DNA of 64,000 nucleotides, taken from positions 1,798,001 to 1,862,000 of the forward strand of contig JAXHMJ010000005.1 of the NCBI GenBank assembly GCA_034521575.1, in the 5' to 3' direction. The translations under genes and the position numbers were made by a program. The notes below the pieces were generated by a model. It did not search any database, was not told where the DNA came from, and was given only the letters and a program-made list of their open reading frames with translations. Source of the DNA: a candidate division KSB1 bacterium. GTDB taxonomy: Bacteria > Zhuqueibacterota > Zhuqueibacteria > Residuimicrobiales > Krinioviventaceae. Shown piece after piece: positions 22,905 through 35,075 of the stretch. Every line of letters starts with the position of its first letter. Position 1 is the first letter of the stretch.

Positions 22905-24700
22905 TCAATCTACTTTGAGCACAGCCAGGAATGCTTCCTGCGGCACTTCAACTTTGCCCAGCTGTTTCATTCGCTTTTTACCCTCTTTCTGACGCTCCAA
23001 AAGCTTGCGTTTGCGCGTAATATCTCCGCCGTAACATTTGGCAGTCACATTTTTGCGCAGGGCACGAACTGTTTCACGCGCAATCACCTTGCTGCCGACC
23101 GCCGCCTGTATTGCAACCTGAAACATCTGCCGCGGTATCAATTCCTGGAGCTTTTGACAGACCCGCCGTCCCCAATCATATGCTTTATCTTTATGCACAA
23201 TCACAGAGAGGGCGTCTACAGACTCGCCGTTCAGCAAAACATCAAGTTTAACCATATCCGCCTTGCGGTATTCGAGAAACTCGTAATCGAATGATGCATA
23301 CCCCTTGGAAATTGATTTCAACCGGTCATAGAAATCAAACACCACCTCGGTCAGCGGGAATTCGTACTGAAGATTGGCTCGCTCTTTGTCAATATACTCC
23401 GTATTGATATAAACACCTCTTCGCTCCTGGGATAACGTCATAATGCTTCCGATAAACTCAGCAGGTGTCATAATGCTGGCGGAAATATACGGCTCTTCAA
23501 TATGATCCATTCCATTCAGATCCGGAAGATCCGCAGGACTGTCTATGACGATCTTTTCACCGCTGTCCGAGTAGGCAAAAAACTCGACATTGGGCACCGT
23601 AGTCACCAGATCCAGCTCGTACTCGCGTTCAAGACGCTCCTGAATAATTTCCATGTGCAGCAGTCCTAAAAATCCGCATCTGAATCCGAATCCCAAAGCG
23701 ATAGAAGACTCGGGTCAAACCGCAGGGCCGAGTCGTTCAGAGACAGTTTTTCCAGGGCATTGCGCAAATTCTCATAATCCTCGGAATCCGCCGGAAACAA
23801 ACCGCTGAACACCATTGGCTTGACCTCCCGGTAGCCGGGCAACTGCTGCCGGGCCGGGTTTTTCACACTCGTAATGGTGTCGCCGACTTTGGTGTCTTTG
23901 ACATCTTTGGCGCCTGCAATGATATACCCCACCTCACCGGCTTCCAGGGTTTCCCGTTTCAACTGCTGCAGACGGAACACACCAACCTCCTGAGCTTCAA
24001 ACTCCTTACCGGTTGACATGAAACGGATCATACTGTTGGTGCGTATTCTGCCTTCCATCACACGTACATAAGCAATAGCGCCGCGGTACGAATTAAAGAC
24101 TGAATCGAAAATCAAAGCGCGAGTGGGCGCCTCTACCTGACCACCGGGGGGTGGGACACGCTTGACAACCGCTTCAAGCACATCCTGCACACCGGTTCCG
24201 GCTTTGGCGCTCACCAGACAAATTTCATCTTCCGAGCAGCCTATGGTATCCATGATCTGATGTTTCACATGATCAATCTCCGCACTGGGCAGATCAATCT
24301 TGTTGATGACCGGAATAATTTCGAGATCGTGTTCAAGAGCCAGATATAAATTACTCATCGTCTGAGCTTCTATCCCCTGAGCGGCATCGACCACCAGCAA
24401 CGTGCCTTCACAAGCGGCCAGACTGCGTGAAACTTCATAAGTAAAATCTACGTGCCCCGGGGTATCAATCAGATTTAGCGTATACTCGTGACCGTCTTTG
24501 GCTTTATAGTTCATGGTGATAGCATGCATTTTTATCGTAATGCCGCGCTCACGCTCCAGATCCATACTGTCCAGGACCTGCTCTTTCATCTCTTTTTTAC
24601 TAATGGTATGAGTAAATTCCAAAAACCGGTCAGCCAGTGTTGACTTGCCGTGATCAATATGAGCTATAATAGAAAAATTGCGAAAATAGTCCTGCTTCAT
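22905..24700 (-). pseudogene. lepA: Elongation factor 4 (LepA) GTPase, split by one frameshift
   Basis: The first part (from ATG 24700) shows all translational GTPase motifs: [14 protein letters not shown] (G1), DTPGHVDF (G3) and NKIDLPSA (G4). It loses frame near 23713 after LRFDP. The next frame continues with [20 protein letters not shown], the diagnostic LepA block, and ends with [13 protein letters not shown], the usual LepA C-terminus. One missing C in the run at 23712-23714 would restore ~600 residues, the normal size. LepA binds ribosomes and promotes back-translocation or initiation fidelity. Because the lesion is one base in a homopolymer of a widely conserved gene, a sequence error is more likely than true loss. 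A promoter lies at 24741-24769. Confidence 0.93.
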
Positions 24701-24769: not shown

Positions 24770-24937
24770 CCGCTTCGCAGCGTTGGACCATCCATCCCAG
24801 TACCAATACGCCTGTCACCGTTCTCTCTGCTTCAGTCCAGGTCGCTTTATGAGACTCGCCCATAGTCCGACAAACTGTCACGAAAAAAGGAATGGTCCTC
24901 ACACGCATCGTGTTAACAGTTGGAAAAAGGAGGCTAT

Positions 24938-25843
24938 ATGAATATTTTCCTTACAGGCTGGAACCGGATTTGTCGGGACCCACGTTCTCAGACAATGCGT
25001 ACAGGCCGGACATCAGTCTCTCTGTACTGGTTCGCAGCGACAGACAAGGCCGAACAGGTGGCCTGCATGGGAGCATCACCGGTCTACGGTGACATCACAG
25101 ACATCGGGTCGTTCCAGGATGCCTTGTCGGATTGTCGGGCAGTCATTCATCTCATTGCGATCATCAGGGAACAGCCCCGCAAAAATATGACCTTCGAACG
25201 CATCAATAATCAGGGAACCCGGCAGCTCGTGCAGGCGGCCCGAAAGCAGGGCATTGAACGCTTTGTGCACTTGAGCGCATTAAACGCGGATCCGAATGCC
25301 TCTACTCCCTATTTTGAAAGCAAAGGAAAAGCAGAAGCGGCAGTCCGGGAGAGCGGAATAAACCCCTGCATTCTAAAACCCAGCTTTATAGTGGGGCCGG
25401 GCATGCCTGTTTACTCCATGCTGGCCCGCTTTATAAAAAAATCACCTTTTCACATATTCCCGGTTTTCGGAAACGGACGTTACCGTCACCAACCTGTCTC
25501 TGTTCATGATCTGGCCAAAGCTGTTGCTCTTGCTGTAAACACGGAAAACCAATGTTCAGGGACCTACGATCTGGGCGGACCCGAAGCTCTGTCTTTTAAT
25601 GAGCAACTACGACAGATCGCTGAGGTGATCGATAGTCCGGTACATCTCTGGCACCAGCCCGTGTGGATGAGTCGGGTTGCTGTCTCTCTTTTGTCTCTTC
25701 TTCCCCAATCACCCATCGATCAAAACCAATTGAGTATGCTCATCCGGGACAATACATGTGACATTTCCCGGTTCGTGCATGATTTTGGTATAGATCCCAT
25801 GCCGTTCAAACAGGCAGTCCGTTATCTGGACAACAGCGTATGA
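24938..25843 (+). CDS. NAD(P)-binding SDR/epimerase (complex I NDUFA9-like), with scrambled N-terminus
   Basis: From residue ~35 onward the protein matches atypical short-chain dehydrogenases of the NDUFA9/YbjT type: GDITDIGSFQDALSDCRAVI, RFVHLSALNADP, YFESKGKAEAAVRESG (YxxxK) and CILKPSFIVGPG. The N-terminal Rossmann motif is not in the main frame but is visible in shifted frames: GTGFVGTHVLRQCVQAGHQ around 24960-25016, and SVLVRSD around 25021-25042. Three single-base insertions (T 24959, near 25018, near 25043) would put everything in one frame; because they sum to three, the frame stays open. ATG 24938 follows a near-perfect AAGGAGG. As written the NAD-binding loop is destroyed. Probable role: quinone/isoprenoid-linked or sugar-nucleotide metabolism, not resolvable. 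Confidence 0.75.
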   Translation: MNIFLTGWNRICRDPRSQTMRTGRTSVSLYWFAATDKAEQVACMGASPVYGDITDIGSFQDALSDCRAVIHLIAIIREQPRKNMTFERINNQGTRQLVQAARKQGIERFVHLSALNADPNASTPYFESKGKAEAAVRESGINPCILKPSFIVGPGMPVYSMLARFIKKSPFHIFPVFGNGRYRHQPVSVHDLAKAVALAVNTENQCSGTYDLGGPEALSFNEQLRQIAEVIDSPVHLWHQPVWMSRVAVSLLSLLPQSPIDQNQLSMLIRDNTCDISRFVHDFGIDPMPFKQAVRYLDNSV

Positions 25844-25964: not shown

Positions 25965-26633
25965 CTAAACAAGCAGAACAGATATGATCCCGGTCAGAAA
26001 GATCCCGTCAAAAGTTCCGGCTCCTCCGATAGAGGCAACCGGTGCGCCCATATCCTTGATCTTGTTAAAATTCAGAATATCCGCACCAACCAGGGTACCC
26101 ATGGTCCCGGCTATATAGGCCACCCGGGCGGTATCCTGGGGCGCCAGAATCAGCGCTATGATAATGGTTACCAGGGGGGGAATAAAAATAGGAGTGGCAA
26201 TTCCCAATCCCTTGACCGGTCTGGACACAGCCTGAATAATCAATGCAACCAGAATTGTGGCCAGTACGGGGGTGATCAGAGAAGGACTCTGCAGCCATAG
26301 ATACAGAGACACCAGAGACGGGATCACAGCGCCGCCCACATTGATCGCGATTGTGGTACATCGGGGCGACATATCAGGGATTCTGTAGCGCATACCCCAA
26401 AATTTAATGTTGCGTTCAATTACGGGTTCATCACAGGCAAGTTCTTTGACCGGAATATTGACCATACTGCCGACAAGAGACCCCACCAGAATAAAAAAGA
26501 CTCCGAATGTGCTGAATCCCAGCTTTTCAAATGCAAACGTCAGTATATGAAGCTGGATCAGTACAAAAAGAAAGATCAACAAAATAACGGAAAACAGGAA
26601 AAACAATAAAACAAAGGGTGGATAAAATCGCAT
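25965..26633 (-). CDS. DUF1614 membrane protein
   Basis: This 222-residue protein with about seven hydrophobic segments matches the DUF1614 family. After two N-terminal helices come GSLVGSMVNIPVKEL, the DUF1614-like NVGGAVIPSLVSLYL, and the C-terminal GTLVGADILNFNKIKDMGAPVASIGGAGTFDGIFLTGI (positions about 25980-26090), the most conserved block of the family. The function is unknown; the polar Asp/Asn residues in helices suggest transport or sensing. An AGGAGG site precedes the ATG. The genes around it are unrelated, so context gives no clue. Confidence 0.85.
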   Translation of the reverse strand: MRFYPPFVLLFFLFSVILLIFLFVLIQLHILTFAFEKLGFSTFGVFFILVGSLVGSMVNIPVKELACDEPVIERNIKFWGMRYRIPDMSPRCTTIAINVGGAVIPSLVSLYLWLQSPSLITPVLATILVALIIQAVSRPVKGLGIATPIFIPPLVTIIIALILAPQDTARVAYIAGTMGTLVGADILNFNKIKDMGAPVASIGGAGTFDGIFLTGIISVLLV

Positions 26634-26769: not shown

Positions 26770-27049
26770 ATGTCATGCGATCTACAGATCGCGCAGCAGG
26801 CCCGATGATTAACAAGTTCGGACATAGCTGAAGAGCTGGGGAGTTACCGATTTGTATGCGAGAATCCCTCTGTCCCGATCCCACGACTCGAAAATCAAAG
26901 GCAGACCCAAACTTTTACAATCCATGTACGCGAAATCCGGGCAGCGCAGGATTCATATATCCGCTTCTGGGTGATATGATGACCTTGCCGGGACTGCCGG
27001 TAAAAACATCGATATTGACAGCGAAGAAAAAATCATTGAATTGTTATAA
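26770..27049 (+). pseudogene. fhs: Collapsed remnant of formate-tetrahydrofolate ligase
   Basis: The segment starts with ATG 26770 and DLQIAQQAR, then DIAEELG in another frame, like the FTHFS N-terminus. It jumps immediately to C-terminal sequence read in several frames: LPICM, SRSHDSKIKGRP, FTIHVREIR, AGFIYPLLGDMMTLPGLP and finally NIDIDSEEKIIELL with a stop at 27047-27049. These blocks are in the same order as in the FTHFS C-terminus. About 450 central residues, including the ATP-binding site, are absent, and at least three further frame changes occur in the remainder. FTHFS (formate + THF + ATP) is a key step of the Wood-Ljungdahl methyl branch. The ELG string occurs at both junction sides of the family, suggesting a short-homology deletion or an assembly collapse. 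Confidence 0.7.
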
Positions 27050-27156
27050 TGAATTGATATTGAACAAAATATTTCACATATTAAATATGATACGGCAACC
27101 GCCGATTGAAAAGCTGAACTCAATGATGAACCTGTACTAAATATAAAGGATAGTGA

Positions 27157-27813: not shown

Positions 27814-27892
27814 AATAATCTTTTTTTATTTTTTGTTATAAAACTGGAAAAGCGATGGTTTTGCTTGAATGTACACTGAAAAGGAGAGTAAT

Positions 27893-28606
27893 ATGACACT
27901 GAAACGTCTGTTTGTTTTTTTGATGATCACAGGAGCAATTTTTTGGAGTTGCAGCGATGACAGCGGCAACGGCACCGGCCCCAGTTCCACAGAAGAGCCG
28001 CCGGAATTAAATGTCGAATTTCCCACATTACCGGAAAAAATGCAGCAGTCGAATGACCCGCATGCTCAGCAGGTCAAAACATATCTAATGATCGCAAACA
28101 ATATGAGCAATACATATCTTGCATACGTTATACCACCTGCAAACGCCGGCAATGGCGATATGAATTACACCTGGACGGATGGTGAAGTAACCGTTCATCT
28201 CGATATTTCCGAATCCGGTAATACAATAGAATGGAAAGTACGCTTTAGCGGGTCAGACGGTGAACATACCTATGACAACTGGCTGGCCATGGAAGCACAA
28301 CGCAACAAGGCAGGCACACAGAGCTCCTTTGTGATTTATGAAAAAGGTATTGAGGGACCAGCGGCAACTTTTGATTATAATAAAGACGACGCTGACACTC
28401 AATCTTATGATTTCAAAGCGTACGGCTCTACCGGAATCCGATTGTTAGCCGCAGTCAATGCGGACAGTTCAGGTTGGGCTGAACAGTATGAATATATGGA
28501 TAATCAATTTGTTCTGAACGAAAAGTATGAATGGGACGCTCAAGGCAACGGTGAATGGTGGAACTATAATACAGATGGTTCTGTTTCCGCTTCGGGAACC
28601 TGGTAA
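27893..28606 (+). CDS. Hypothetical lipoprotein
   Basis: From ATG 27893, preceded by AAGGAGAG, the product has 237 residues with a short signal peptide and lipobox (LMITGAIFWSC), followed by a low-complexity Asp/Ser/Gly/Pro linker. The remaining ~190 residues are beta-rich, acidic and Tyr/Trp-rich (MNYTWTDGEVTVHLDIS, TIEWKVRFSGSDGEHTYDNW), resembling cell-surface beta-sandwich lipoproteins of FCB bacteria. No enzymatic motif is visible and I do not recognise a named family. It is monocistronic, ending at a strong terminator (28615-28645). A longer frame from 27869 exists but lacks the lipoprotein geometry. Confidence 0.7.
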   Translation: MTLKRLFVFLMITGAIFWSCSDDSGNGTGPSSTEEPPELNVEFPTLPEKMQQSNDPHAQQVKTYLMIANNMSNTYLAYVIPPANAGNGDMNYTWTDGEVTVHLDISESGNTIEWKVRFSGSDGEHTYDNWLAMEAQRNKAGTQSSFVIYEKGIEGPAATFDYNKDDADTQSYDFKAYGSTGIRLLAAVNADSSGWAEQYEYMDNQFVLNEKYEWDAQGNGEWWNYNTDGSVSASGTW

Positions 28607-28731: not shown

Positions 28732-30743
28732 ATGAAATTCTATTCGATTCTGGTTTTATTCGCACTCGTTCAATTATGCCGGGGAGGCGCTTTGGAACAA
28801 TTGACAATTGATCAGACCATTCAAAAACTCGAAAAAAAATACGGGGATCAACACAGATTTCGTATTGAAAAGGGTGTACAACAGGTTGCTCAACTGTGGC
28901 GGACGTCCGACGGCAGCCAACAAGCGTTTCAGTCCTTCTGTACCGCATCCTTTATTGCGGATTCCCAGGAACTGGACCGTACCTTAGACCGATTTCAACA
29001 CAACCTTGAAATCATTTACGGGCATATGCACCAAGTCAACCGCGATCTCAGCGTGCCGGTCGAGTGCGAGACAAACTACCTTTTACCCGTAGACCACCGA
29101 TTTGCTGAATATGATCCGTCCGCGCATATCCAGTCCGATCTGTTTACCAACAAAATCGCATTCACGGCGCTCCTAAACTTTCCGGCTTTTACGCTTGCAG
29201 AGAAAAACAAATGGGCCGCCATTGGTCACGGCGGGAATGGGCCAAAGCCCGACTGGCGGATGAATTTCTCATGCGCATCCCGTCTCACGTCGCACAGGAA
29301 CGGTCACGCGTTTATGTGCAGGTAGATAATTATATTGCCAATTATAATATACACATGCATCATTTGTTGGACGAAAACAATAAAAGACTCTTTCCTGACG
29401 GCTTGAGCCTGATCACACATTGGGGCCTTCGCGACGAATTAAAAGGGCAATATAAGAATCCGGACGGTTTCAAACGCCAAAAAATGATTCAAAAAGTCAT
29501 GCAGCGAATAATCACTCAAACGATTCCGCGGGACGTGATCGACAATCCGGAACTCGACTGGAATCCGGCAACCAACACACTTTACCGCAAAGGTACGCCA
29601 GCCGCAGCTGAACCGGAACCTGATACCCGTTATAAAAATATGCTCAAAGTATTTCACGCAGAACAAAATCTCGACACTTATACGCCGGCATATCCCACCA
29701 AAATAGACCGACGATTCAAACATGACCGGGAAATGTCCGAACAACAATTTGAAGAGCTGGCTGAATCCGTACTCGGCGCTCCGATAGGCAAACAAGTGGC
29801 TGAGCTCATATCAGAACGTCTGGGTCGACCTCTACAGCCCTTTGATATCTGGTACAATGGTTTCCAGTCACAGGGCGGTCCGCAGGAATCCCGGCTGGAT
29901 TCAATCACCAGCGCGCGTTATCCCAATGTCCGGGCCTTTCAGGCCGATCTCGGCAATATTCTCCGTTCTCTGGATTTCAAAGCGGATGACGCCGAATTTC
30001 TGGCATCTAAAATTACAGTGGATCCGTCGCGCGGCGCCGGACACGCCACCGGCGCCAAACGTGCGCAAGATAATGCGCATCTGCGTACGCGTCTTCCTGA
30101 AAGCGGGATGAAATACAAGGGATTTAACATCGCGATTCATGAGCTGGGTCATAACGTAGAACAGGTTTTTTCTCTGAACCGTATGGATCACTATATGCTG
30201 GAAGGTGTGCCCAATACAGCTTTTACCGAAGCATTCGCGTTTGTATTTCAGTCACGCGACCTGGATGTGCTGGGTATCGACACAAAAAATGAACAGCAGG
30301 AGCTCTTCAAGGCCCTGGATACCTACTGGTCCACCTGTGAAATCGCAGCCGTTGGCCTGGTCGATCTGCGCGTATGGCGCTGGCTGTACAATCACCCCGA
30401 TGCCAACGCGGCAGACCTGAAAGCCGCAGTGATTCAAATAGCAAAAGACGTGTGGAATGAATACTATGCACCGCTGATCGGACATGACGATTCCATGCTG
30501 CTGGCCATTTATTCCCATATGATCGCCAATGGTTTATATCTTCCCGATTATTCTCTGGGACATTTGATCATGTTCCAGATTGAACAGTATTTAAAAAACA
30601 AACCATTGGGAAAAGAAATGGAACGTATGTGCCGGTTGGGACGTTTAACCCCGAATTTTTGGATGAAACAGGCAGTCAATGAGCCCGTCTCTTCTGAATC
30701 ATTACTGAAAGCAACACAGCAAGCCGTAAAGGCGTTAAAGTAG
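28732..30743 (+). pseudogene. Secreted HELGH metallopeptidase-like protein, one frameshift
   Basis: The N-terminus is a Sec signal peptide (MKFYSILVLFALVQLCRGG). The frame breaks near 29195-29210 in an A-rich run and continues as MGRHWSRREWAKARLADEFL, giving ~670 residues if one base is restored. Residues encoded near 30138-30152 are HELGH, the HExxH zinc-binding motif, and about 25 codons later VPNTAFTEAFAFVFQ supplies a plausible third ligand Glu (gluzincin arrangement reminiscent of M3-type peptidases). I do not recognise the exact family. The start is fixed by the consensus promoter and GGAGGAG. A periplasmic or secreted peptidase is the best guess. Confidence 0.65.
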
Positions 30744-31515: not shown

Positions 31516-34500
31516 GTGAAACTTGTAGAACTGAACATAGTCGGATTCAAGTCGTTTGCGAAAAAGACCCATATCCTGATGCATGACGGCATTACCGCCA
31601 TCGTCGGTCCAAACGGCTGTGGAAAAAGTAATATTGTCGACGCGATACGCTGGGTCATGGGAGAACAACGCACCAGCGCACTCCGAAGTGAAAAAATGGA
31701 CAATGTCATTTTCAGCGGTTCGGCAAGCGCCAAAGCCGTTGGCATGGCTGAAGTGTCTTTGCGCATCGAAAATGATGATAACAGATTGCCGGTTGATTAC
31801 TCTGAAGTGGTGATCACCCGCCGTCTCTTTCGTTCCGGAGAGAGCCAGTACCTGATTAACGGCAACCAATGCCGTCTCAAAGACATCAATGATCTTTTCA
31901 TGGACACCGGAATGACCGGTCAATCCTATTCTGTTATCGAACTGCCGCAGGTGGACAAAATTTTGAACGGCGCTCCGGAAGAACGCAGCCGCATTTTTGA
32001 AGAAGCCGCAGGCATCACAAAATTCAAACAGCGCCGCCGGCTCACCTTGCGAAAACTGGATGCCACAGAAAAAGACCTGAACCGCGTGAATGACATTTTA
32101 GCAGAAGTTGAGAAAAAAGTCCGCAGTCTGCAACGCCAGGTCACCAAGGCCCGCCGCTATCAGGAACTGTCTGAAGAACTGAAAGACCAGGACATCAAAC
32201 TGGCCACTCATGATTACGTGAACCTGATCGATGAACTTGAACCGCTTGAGACAAAACGCAATCATCTGGTCGATGAACGCGAGGAGGTCATGGCATCCCT
32301 TTCCAACAAGGAAGCCGATTTTGAATCCTGCAAAACCCGGCTCCTGGAACTGGAACAGAAACTCTCGCATGAACAATCGACCTATAACAATTATTATAAA
32401 AATATTCAAAAATTTGAAGAACGTGTACTGGTCAACAAAGAGCGTATCCGCAGTCTCGAGGAAATGCAAAAGCGCTATGACGATGAACGCGAACATCTGG
32501 TCGAGCAGCTGAACAGTCTGGAACAGGACCTGGATCAAGCCAATTACGAAACCAAACGCGTCAAAAAAGATCTAGATGCCGCCAAAGAACAATACGCAAC
32601 GTTAAATACCGAATATCAATCCGTTCGTCAGGACTATGATGACAAACGGGCGGCGTTCAAGGATAAAGAAGCCGAGATTTTGTACATCACGGAACAAATC
32701 TCGTCAAAGTTGAACGAAGGAGAGCGACTGCGTGCGACAGAAGAAAGTCTCAGCCAGCGCATGCAGGACATTGATGCCCATGTAACCCGGCAAAAAGAAC
32801 AGTTTCATGACATTTCACGGTCATTGAGCGAACTCCGAACCGCTGAAGCGGAACTGACGCAGCGCTATGAACAGACCCTTGAACATCACACGCAGGCTGA
32901 ACGCAAGGCCAATGAAGCCCGCAGTGCAGCGGACGGTTTACGCAAAACGGACTTGCAGGATCAGAACCGCATCGAGGTTTTGGAAAACAATGCTGAAATG
33001 ATTCGAAAGGTTTTGGAAAACTATCAGGATTACCCCTCGGGCGTTCGCTATCTTGCCACATTGAAATCAGATAATTTCAAATCGTTCGGAACTGTGGCCA
33101 ATGCGTTGCATGTCGATTCTGAACATCGCACCGCCATTTCCGCGGCATTGGGCGAGGCTGCGGCTTATCTGATCGTTAACAATATCAACGACGCCACCAC
33201 CGGTATCGGGCTGCTTCAGCAGGAACGCAAAGGCGTGGTATCATTTTTACCTCTTGAAGCCATACCCGACGGTCATTCAGAACATCCTCACATTGAAGAC
33301 CTGGGGGTGGTAGACTGGGCGGATCAGGTCGTACGCTGTCAAGACCGCTTTCGCCCCATCTTGAATATGTTGCTAACTCCCTTTCTCATTGTTCAGGATC
33401 TTGAAACTGCGAACCGTCTCTATGAGACAGCCGCGGGTAAAAAGGTCAATCTGGTCACACTTGCCGGTGAAGTTCTGGGGCATTGGGGACTGATACGCGG
33501 AGGCAGCCACAGCAAACGTCAATCTGATTTTGTCGGACGTCAGGAAGAACTGGAACAGATTCAAAACGAAATGCAGGAAATCAAACAAGCTTCCGAACGC
33601 CGTCAACAGAGAATCCAGGAACTGGATGCCTCTGAAACGGAAACAAGACAACAGGCGGAATCGCTTCAGGAAGAGCTCAAAAATCTGGAGCAGGAGTTGT
33701 CCCGCAAACGCGTTGATCTCGGGCGGGTTGAATATGAATACAAAAGCATCCGGGAATCCATAGAAACCCAAACGTCTGAAAAACAGGAACTCTTTAAACG
33801 GGTCACAGCAGTGGGGAAAATCTGAAATCCCAGGACAGCACCGCCCAGGCCCTGAAAGAAAAACGAGCAATCCTGGCCAAAGAAACATCCGAGTTGGAAC
33901 AGGCTGTGCAGAATATCGAGAAAGAGACCATCAGCGCATCGGAAAAAGTGCATCATATCCAGGTCAAAGTGGCCGAAATGTCGAGTGAATTCAATGGCTC
34001 CGAACGCCAACGCGATTCTGTACGCGAACAGATACAGAGCACCCAGAAAATGATCGAGCAGCGGGATCGGGAAAATGCACAGGCTTTTAAAGAAATTGAA
34101 GAGCTGAATCAAGTCAATAAAGAGTACAATGAACGTATCGGACACATGCAGGAAAAACTGCAGGAAGCAAAAGAAAAACTGGAAGAACTCGAGGATGAAC
34201 AGTACAATGTGAACGTGCAAACCGATGAGCAGGAAAAAGAAATCCGGGAATACCGCAAACAGGCCGAACAGCAGAATCAGGCGATCCATGAAGCGGACCT
34301 GAGATTGTCCGAGCTGCGCATGAAGCGCGACTCGTTGACCGCTCAGATGCAGGAAGAGTATGAATTCAAACTCACCCGCCAGCCCAAAGACCCGGACTTT
34401 AATATTGAACAAGCACGCGAAAAAACCCGTGAAATTCGCGAACACATCAAAAAAATGGGACCGGTCAACCTGCTTGCCCTGAAAGAGTACGAAGCAGAAA

Positions 34501-35075
34501 AAGAACGCTTTGACTTTTTATCAAGTCAACGCGATGATTTGCTCAAAGCCAAGGGCGACCTTGCCGAAACGATCAATATCATCAACAATACAGCCAAGGA
34601 AAAACTGGAAGAGACCTTTACCGATATTCAGAAAAATTTTACCCAGGTGTTCCAGAACTTTTTCCACGGCGGCCGCGCAAATTTGGTATTGCGCGAGGGC
34701 GAAGACCCGCTTGACATCAATGTGGACATTTACGCCGCACCCGCCGGGAAAAAACCGGCATCCCTGCAGCTGCTTTCAGGCGGAGAAAAGTCCCTGACCG
34801 CTGTATCCCTGTTGTTTGCTATTTACCTGGTCAAGCCCAGCCCGTTTTGCATTTTTGACGAGGTGGATGCACCGCTTGACGACAAAAATGTTCAGCGGTT
34901 TGCCACAGCCCTCAATGAGCTGTCTGACGGCACCCAGTTTATCATCGTGACACACAACAAGTTGACCATGCGTTCCGCCAAACAATTATACGGTGTCACC
35001 ATGGAACAGGAAGGCGTGTCCAAAGTAGTATCTGTAAAATTTGAAAACGCAGAACAGTATGTTGAACAGGAGTGA
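31516..35075 (+). pseudogene. smc: Chromosome segregation ATPase SMC, one frameshift
   Basis: The first frame from GTG 31516 starts LVELNIVGFKSFAKKTHI with Walker A GPNGCGKSN (residues 31-39), followed by the long coiled coil and a hinge around residues 515-680 (YPSGVRYLATLKSDNFKSFG). It ends at 33825. The next frame picks up at ENLKSQDSTAQALKEKRA and runs through the second coiled coil to the C-terminal head, with LLSGGEKSLTAVSLLFAIY (ABC signature) and CIFDEVDAPLDD (Walker B). One missing G in the GGGG at 33813-33816 would restore ~1,187 residues, the normal SMC length. SMC compacts and segregates chromosomes with ScpAB. A homopolymer lesion in this gene suggests a sequence error. Confidence 0.95.

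Follow-up and report, generated by a model that had tools for sequence, protein, structure and literature searches.

A probable relic of the formate-tetrahydrofolate ligase gene fhs upstream of yggS in a KSB1 bacterium

The two ends of fhs adjoin each other upstream of yggS

What remains of a formate-tetrahydrofolate ligase gene (fhs) when its two ends appear to lie side by side between intact neighbours, and what does its loss mean for one-carbon metabolism? In the window (the whole 64,000-nucleotide stretch of DNA analysed here), a dead copy of fhs occupies positions 26770-27049 (+). Its first 24 codons, with an in-frame TGA, are followed directly by its last ~75 codons in five frame-shifted pieces. 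The locus is organised as follows.

25965..26633 (-): DUF1614 membrane protein, divergent upstream neighbour (PF07758, E 1.8e-60, profile 1-171 of 171, domain whole)
26770..26841 (+): fhs N-terminal remnant, with ATG at 26770, in-frame TGA at 26806-26808 and an ungapped 21-codon block at 26779-26841
26836..26846 (+): junction of the main internal deletion, an approximate point placed by anchor spacing against 16 homologs and by the residues on either side in relatives
26844..27049 (+): fhs C-terminal remnant, five pieces in shifting frame (tblastn E 3.6e-8; anchor spacing)
26844-26858 (+): C-terminal piece 1, LPICM
26858-26911 (+): C-terminal piece 2, ARIPLSRSHDSKIKGRPK
26914-26946 (+): C-terminal piece 3, FTIHVREIRAA
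26946-27002 (+): C-terminal piece 4, AGFIYPLLGDMMTLPGLPV
27002-27049 (+): C-terminal piece 5, KNIDIDSEEKIIELL, ending in a stop codon
27157..27813 (+): yggS (PLP homeostasis protein), intact downstream neighbour (TIGR00044, E 8.1e-51)
27869..28606 (+): lipoprotein-like gene, labelled by eye from its start; homologs adjoin yggS in genomes G004 (locus L102) and G007 (L103)
28732..30743 (+): peptidase-like gene in two frames, labelled by eye from HELGHNVEQ; both ORFs match a single frame of G004 at L102

A Pfam search of the lipoprotein-like and peptidase-like genes gave no match.

The original prediction that fhs had collapsed to its two ends was borne out, as the N-terminal block and the C-terminal tail are both FTHFS sequence. 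The block at 26779-26841 reads DLQIAQQAR*LTSSDIAEELG (asterisk, stop codon). In ungapped alignment with the corresponding block in 18 homologs, it scored 33.4; the runner-up among the 127,874 positions of the window's two strands scored 20.5. These homologs were 18 of the 19 fhs loci L002-L020, L017 being omitted as its start lies in another frame; a motif filter caught six of the 19, and the L010 ORF was used as tblastn query instead. The tail matched residues 495-549 of the FTHFS of G004, a genome of the same family (tblastn; E 3.6e-8), and, once joined, the pieces share 67% identity with that protein (45/67) and 49-57% with L013, L007 and L002. A frameshift-tolerant alignment in which long gaps were cheap reached a score of 212, compared with 53-83 for 12 sequences shuffled in two-base blocks, and was dropped since it put the N-terminal part on unrelated central residues; ungapped block scores and anchor spacing were therefore used instead.

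The Pfam FTHFS model (PF01268), the profile check proposed at the outset, did find similarity at the remnant (E 1.9e-4), at 21.2 bits against a curated cut-off of 27 bits. This sub-cut-off score is what favours chance resemblance to FTHFS, a reading that is scarcely credible given two separate blocks that score far over background, stand in order and lie upstream of yggS as in G004. Compared with Fhs, the remnant is alike in its N- and C-terminal blocks, its strand and the genes that follow fhs in G004, but it has lost ~465 central residues, shifts frame and contains a stop codon. A functional FTHFS has a full-length open frame of ~555 residues; here 1393 nt are gone, there are four more net losses and a TGA interrupts the frame. 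The sequence descends from both ends of FTHFS.

Deletions and frame breaks in the remnant

Anchor spacing was taken from 16 of the 18 homologs, each longer than 500 residues (the truncated L019 and L020 were omitted). All 16 agree in the five tail intervals. The N-terminal interval measures 45 nt in 15 of them and 51 nt in the other, and the middle interval ranges from 1398 to 1572 nt. Subtracting the G004 spacing from that of the remnant gave, in gene order, 0, -1393, -1, -1, -7, 0 and -13 nt, as net figures within which compensating insertions are possible. The main loss of 1393 nt is close to the roughly 1.35 kb that had been estimated by the original prediction. Frame changes fall near 26858, 26912, 26945 and 27002. 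Counting the TGA at 26806-26808, the remnant carries six disabling changes, and every net indel is a loss. Residues ELG had also been proposed as common to both sides of the junction in the family; this did not hold, since, of 18 homologs, three have ELG on the N-terminal side (11 have LG) and none of the 16 that reach the C-terminal side has ELG there. A possible GGG overlap is the most that is visible at the join.

Gene loss and assembly error

An alternative is that fhs is intact in the organism, the assembler having lost its middle and added indels. The consensus is indeed noisy. lepA (22905-24700) lies in two frames with a break near 23.7 kb (net -1 nt), smc (31516-35075) in two frames with a break near 33.8 kb (net -1 nt), and the peptidase-like gene breaks frame near 29.2 kb; the two-frame state of these three genes points to residual indel errors of the assembly. 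Elsewhere in the genome, folD (G000:C2:753642-754497, L131) is also in two frames, net +1 nt compared with G004, and its extra base is probably a consensus error. Assembly errors reportedly account for many apparent pseudogenes in bacteria (PMC11017572). As the assembly is noisy at lepA, smc and folD, the two 1-nt breaks in the fhs remnant may likewise be technical.

The remnant as a whole is unlike these cases. Three counted breaks (lepA, smc and the peptidase-like gene) in the ~12.2 kb between 22.9 and 35.1 kb correspond to ~0.07 expected per 280 bp, an estimate that rests on those three breaks, with a fourth suspected by eye in an epimerase-like gene. Within the 280 bp of the remnant the frame changes four times beyond the junction, and there is a stop as well. 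Losses of 1393, 13 and 7 nt exceed the net 1-nt breaks of lepA, smc and folD, and the remnant was therefore read as a real loss. In agreement, the DUF1614 and yggS neighbours are whole, and seven of the nine other genomes of the family have no fhs over the cut-off (three of these seven being 73-86% complete). Together, these observations make an assembly artefact unlikely. Drift in the tail is small (67% identity to G004, compared with 56% for yggS), so that either the loss was recent or some of the breaks are errors. In the epimerase-like gene, the N-terminal NAD-binding motif GTGFVG (24920-25092) seemingly lies in another frame, by eye a further likely indel.

The remnant probably marks the ancestral fhs locus

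Downstream of the intact fhs of G004, and on its strand, come yggS and then homologs of the genes labelled lipoprotein-like and peptidase-like, which is the order in the window; the gene upstream of fhs differs from that of the window. Because intact fhs precedes the same gene order, the loss is probably real and the site of the remnant is probably the ancestral fhs locus of the lineage, with G004 as the one intact relative that shares it. G007, which is fhs-less over the cut-off, has yggS and both of the genes that come after it; upstream of them lies a different ORF, close to a contig end. yggS was not found in G003, the sole other family genome with fhs, and none of 80 named yggS loci in other bacteria (L021-L100) had fhs nearby at E <= 0.01.

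No other fhs was detected in the source genome with the Pfam FTHFS model (5.26 Mb in five contigs; 96.3% complete, 3.1% contaminated). The genome search suggested with the original prediction thus returned no intact copy, in an assembly from which about 4% of the genome may be absent; with G004 FTHFS as query at E <= 1, one further weak match appeared (E 0.34, residues 54-95, in a 411-codon frame). With the source genome counted, fhs over the cut-off is present in two of the family's 10 genomes, G004 and G003, the G003 match sitting at the end of its stretch. The corresponding figures are 10 of 22 for the order and 30 of 82 for the phylum; several of these genomes are incomplete. The 82 phylum genomes include no second member of the source genus.

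The N-terminal block and C-terminal tail ordered on one strand, the lack of another fhs and the gene order of G004 all support an fhs relic. We consider it very likely that what remains here is a relic, without function, of the lineage's fhs, at its probable ancestral place upstream of yggS, that deletions and a stop destroyed the gene, and that FolD would substitute for it. In the proposed course of events, fhs would have been destroyed by a premature stop, an internal deletion of ~1.39 kb and a number of smaller ones, in an order that can only be suggested; we infer that this was a real loss and not an assembly error. The ends would have lingered as there would be no selection to remove the rest, while deletions reaching into the neighbours would be harmful, and 10-formyl-THF would be made via FolD instead.

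Bacterial pseudogenes can form by internal deletion and deletion-biased decay. The remnant resembles such cases in its large internal deletion, small net deletions and whole flanking genes, with no apparent difference, and is thus an example of ordinary pseudogenisation by an ordinary mechanism of a known kind. No fhs pseudogene was named among the titles of the best literature matches. Selection against deletions that cross into neighbouring sequence has been termed 'border-induced selection' and is applied to human introns in the report that uses the term (PMC9748784); the persistence of the fhs ends may be due to such selection. The relic in place points to deletion, not replacement, as the route of fhs loss. 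It is evidence that a one-carbon enzyme which cells can often do without was lost, probably from its ancestral site, in a family with fhs in two of 10 genomes.

One-carbon metabolism without Fhs

The loss of fhs had been expected to break the methyl branch of the Wood-Ljungdahl pathway. This expectation was not supported, since acetyl-CoA synthase of the CdhC/AcsB family (PF03598) had no match in the source genome or in any of the nine other genomes of the family, and hence there is no sign there of a Wood-Ljungdahl pathway to break; six of the remaining 12 genomes of the order do have matches. A broken fhs, then, need not imply a broken Wood-Ljungdahl pathway.

The source genome has FolD (frameshifted in the assembly, as above), MTHFR and PurH, the last two matching over their whole profiles. 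With these enzymes present, the cell could obtain 10-formyl-THF even in the absence of Fhs. Listeria possesses both of the enzymes that supply 10-formyl-THF, and its mutants in Fhs only are reported to show no observable defect (PMC10653936). The cyclodeaminase (FTCD_C) was not found in the source genome; it is present in G004 and G011. Among the other genomes, the FolD C-terminal domain was not found in G003 (91% complete, with fhs) or G005 (73% complete, no fhs found), and the N-terminal domain was likewise not found in G003.

A collapsed fhs in another family of the order

G011, a 97%-complete genome from another family of the same order, lacks any fhs match over the cut-off and does have CdhC/AcsB. 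It carries a 56-codon ORF, MMNKTPSDLDIAQRASLNAIETLADKIGLDERYLNLYGTYMDVNIDMESGEIKGLF, at C65:44319-44486 (L129:1483-1653), which is an in-frame fhs collapse. Its first part matched residues 8-42 of G004 FTHFS (E 6e-6 in one search, 3e-5 in another). Scored against the C-terminal ends of L013 and L018, its last 13 residues reached 42.5 and ranked first among 159,846 positions (next, 24.0); this pair was picked as reference after a first result had been seen. Against the other 14 of 16 C-termini, those of common spacing, the tail matched poorly (11.7 in one 12-residue register, -2.2 in the other). The neighbours in G011 (DnaJ-like and dGTPase-like genes) were not found beside intact fhs loci, within flanks of up to ~1.5 kb per locus. 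As breakpoints, family and neighbours all differ from those of the window, the G011 collapse was taken as an independent in-frame event.

The G011 ORF bears on whether the remnant in the window might still function, for example as a short peptide or RNA leader of yggS. A 94-codon ORF at 26856-27140 is open, and the G011 ORF has a start, a stop and, by eye, a GGGAGG stretch before the start. Against this, the 94-codon ORF spans FTHFS pieces of differing frame and has no NCBIfam match, and the G011 ORF is matched over its whole length in one of 63 genomes of the class, G011 itself, eight other matches covering only ~ the first 42 codons. Judged from these reading frames, a remaining function in the window would be most improbable, and the remnant is better regarded as a relic. 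The G011 ORF, for its part, may represent a relic of recent origin; a retained micro-protein is less likely. That collapse of fhs to its two ends recurs in the order, and that the in-frame G011 product (FTHFS to ~42 plus the last ~13 residues) would be translated and kept, is very doubtful.

In total, 18 sub-cut-off FTHFS rows were recorded across the genomes, including those of the window remnant, G011 and G009. The G009 row (E 0.007) was rejected as an fhs remnant; its ORF resembles an aldehyde dehydrogenase, and the row has no good match among the 18 homologs. Rows near positions 14-118 in long open frames were taken for putative P-loop cross-matches. The G045 row contains an internal stop, and weak matches to G004 FTHFS (E 0.1-0.34) occur in the source genome, G004, G009 and G011.
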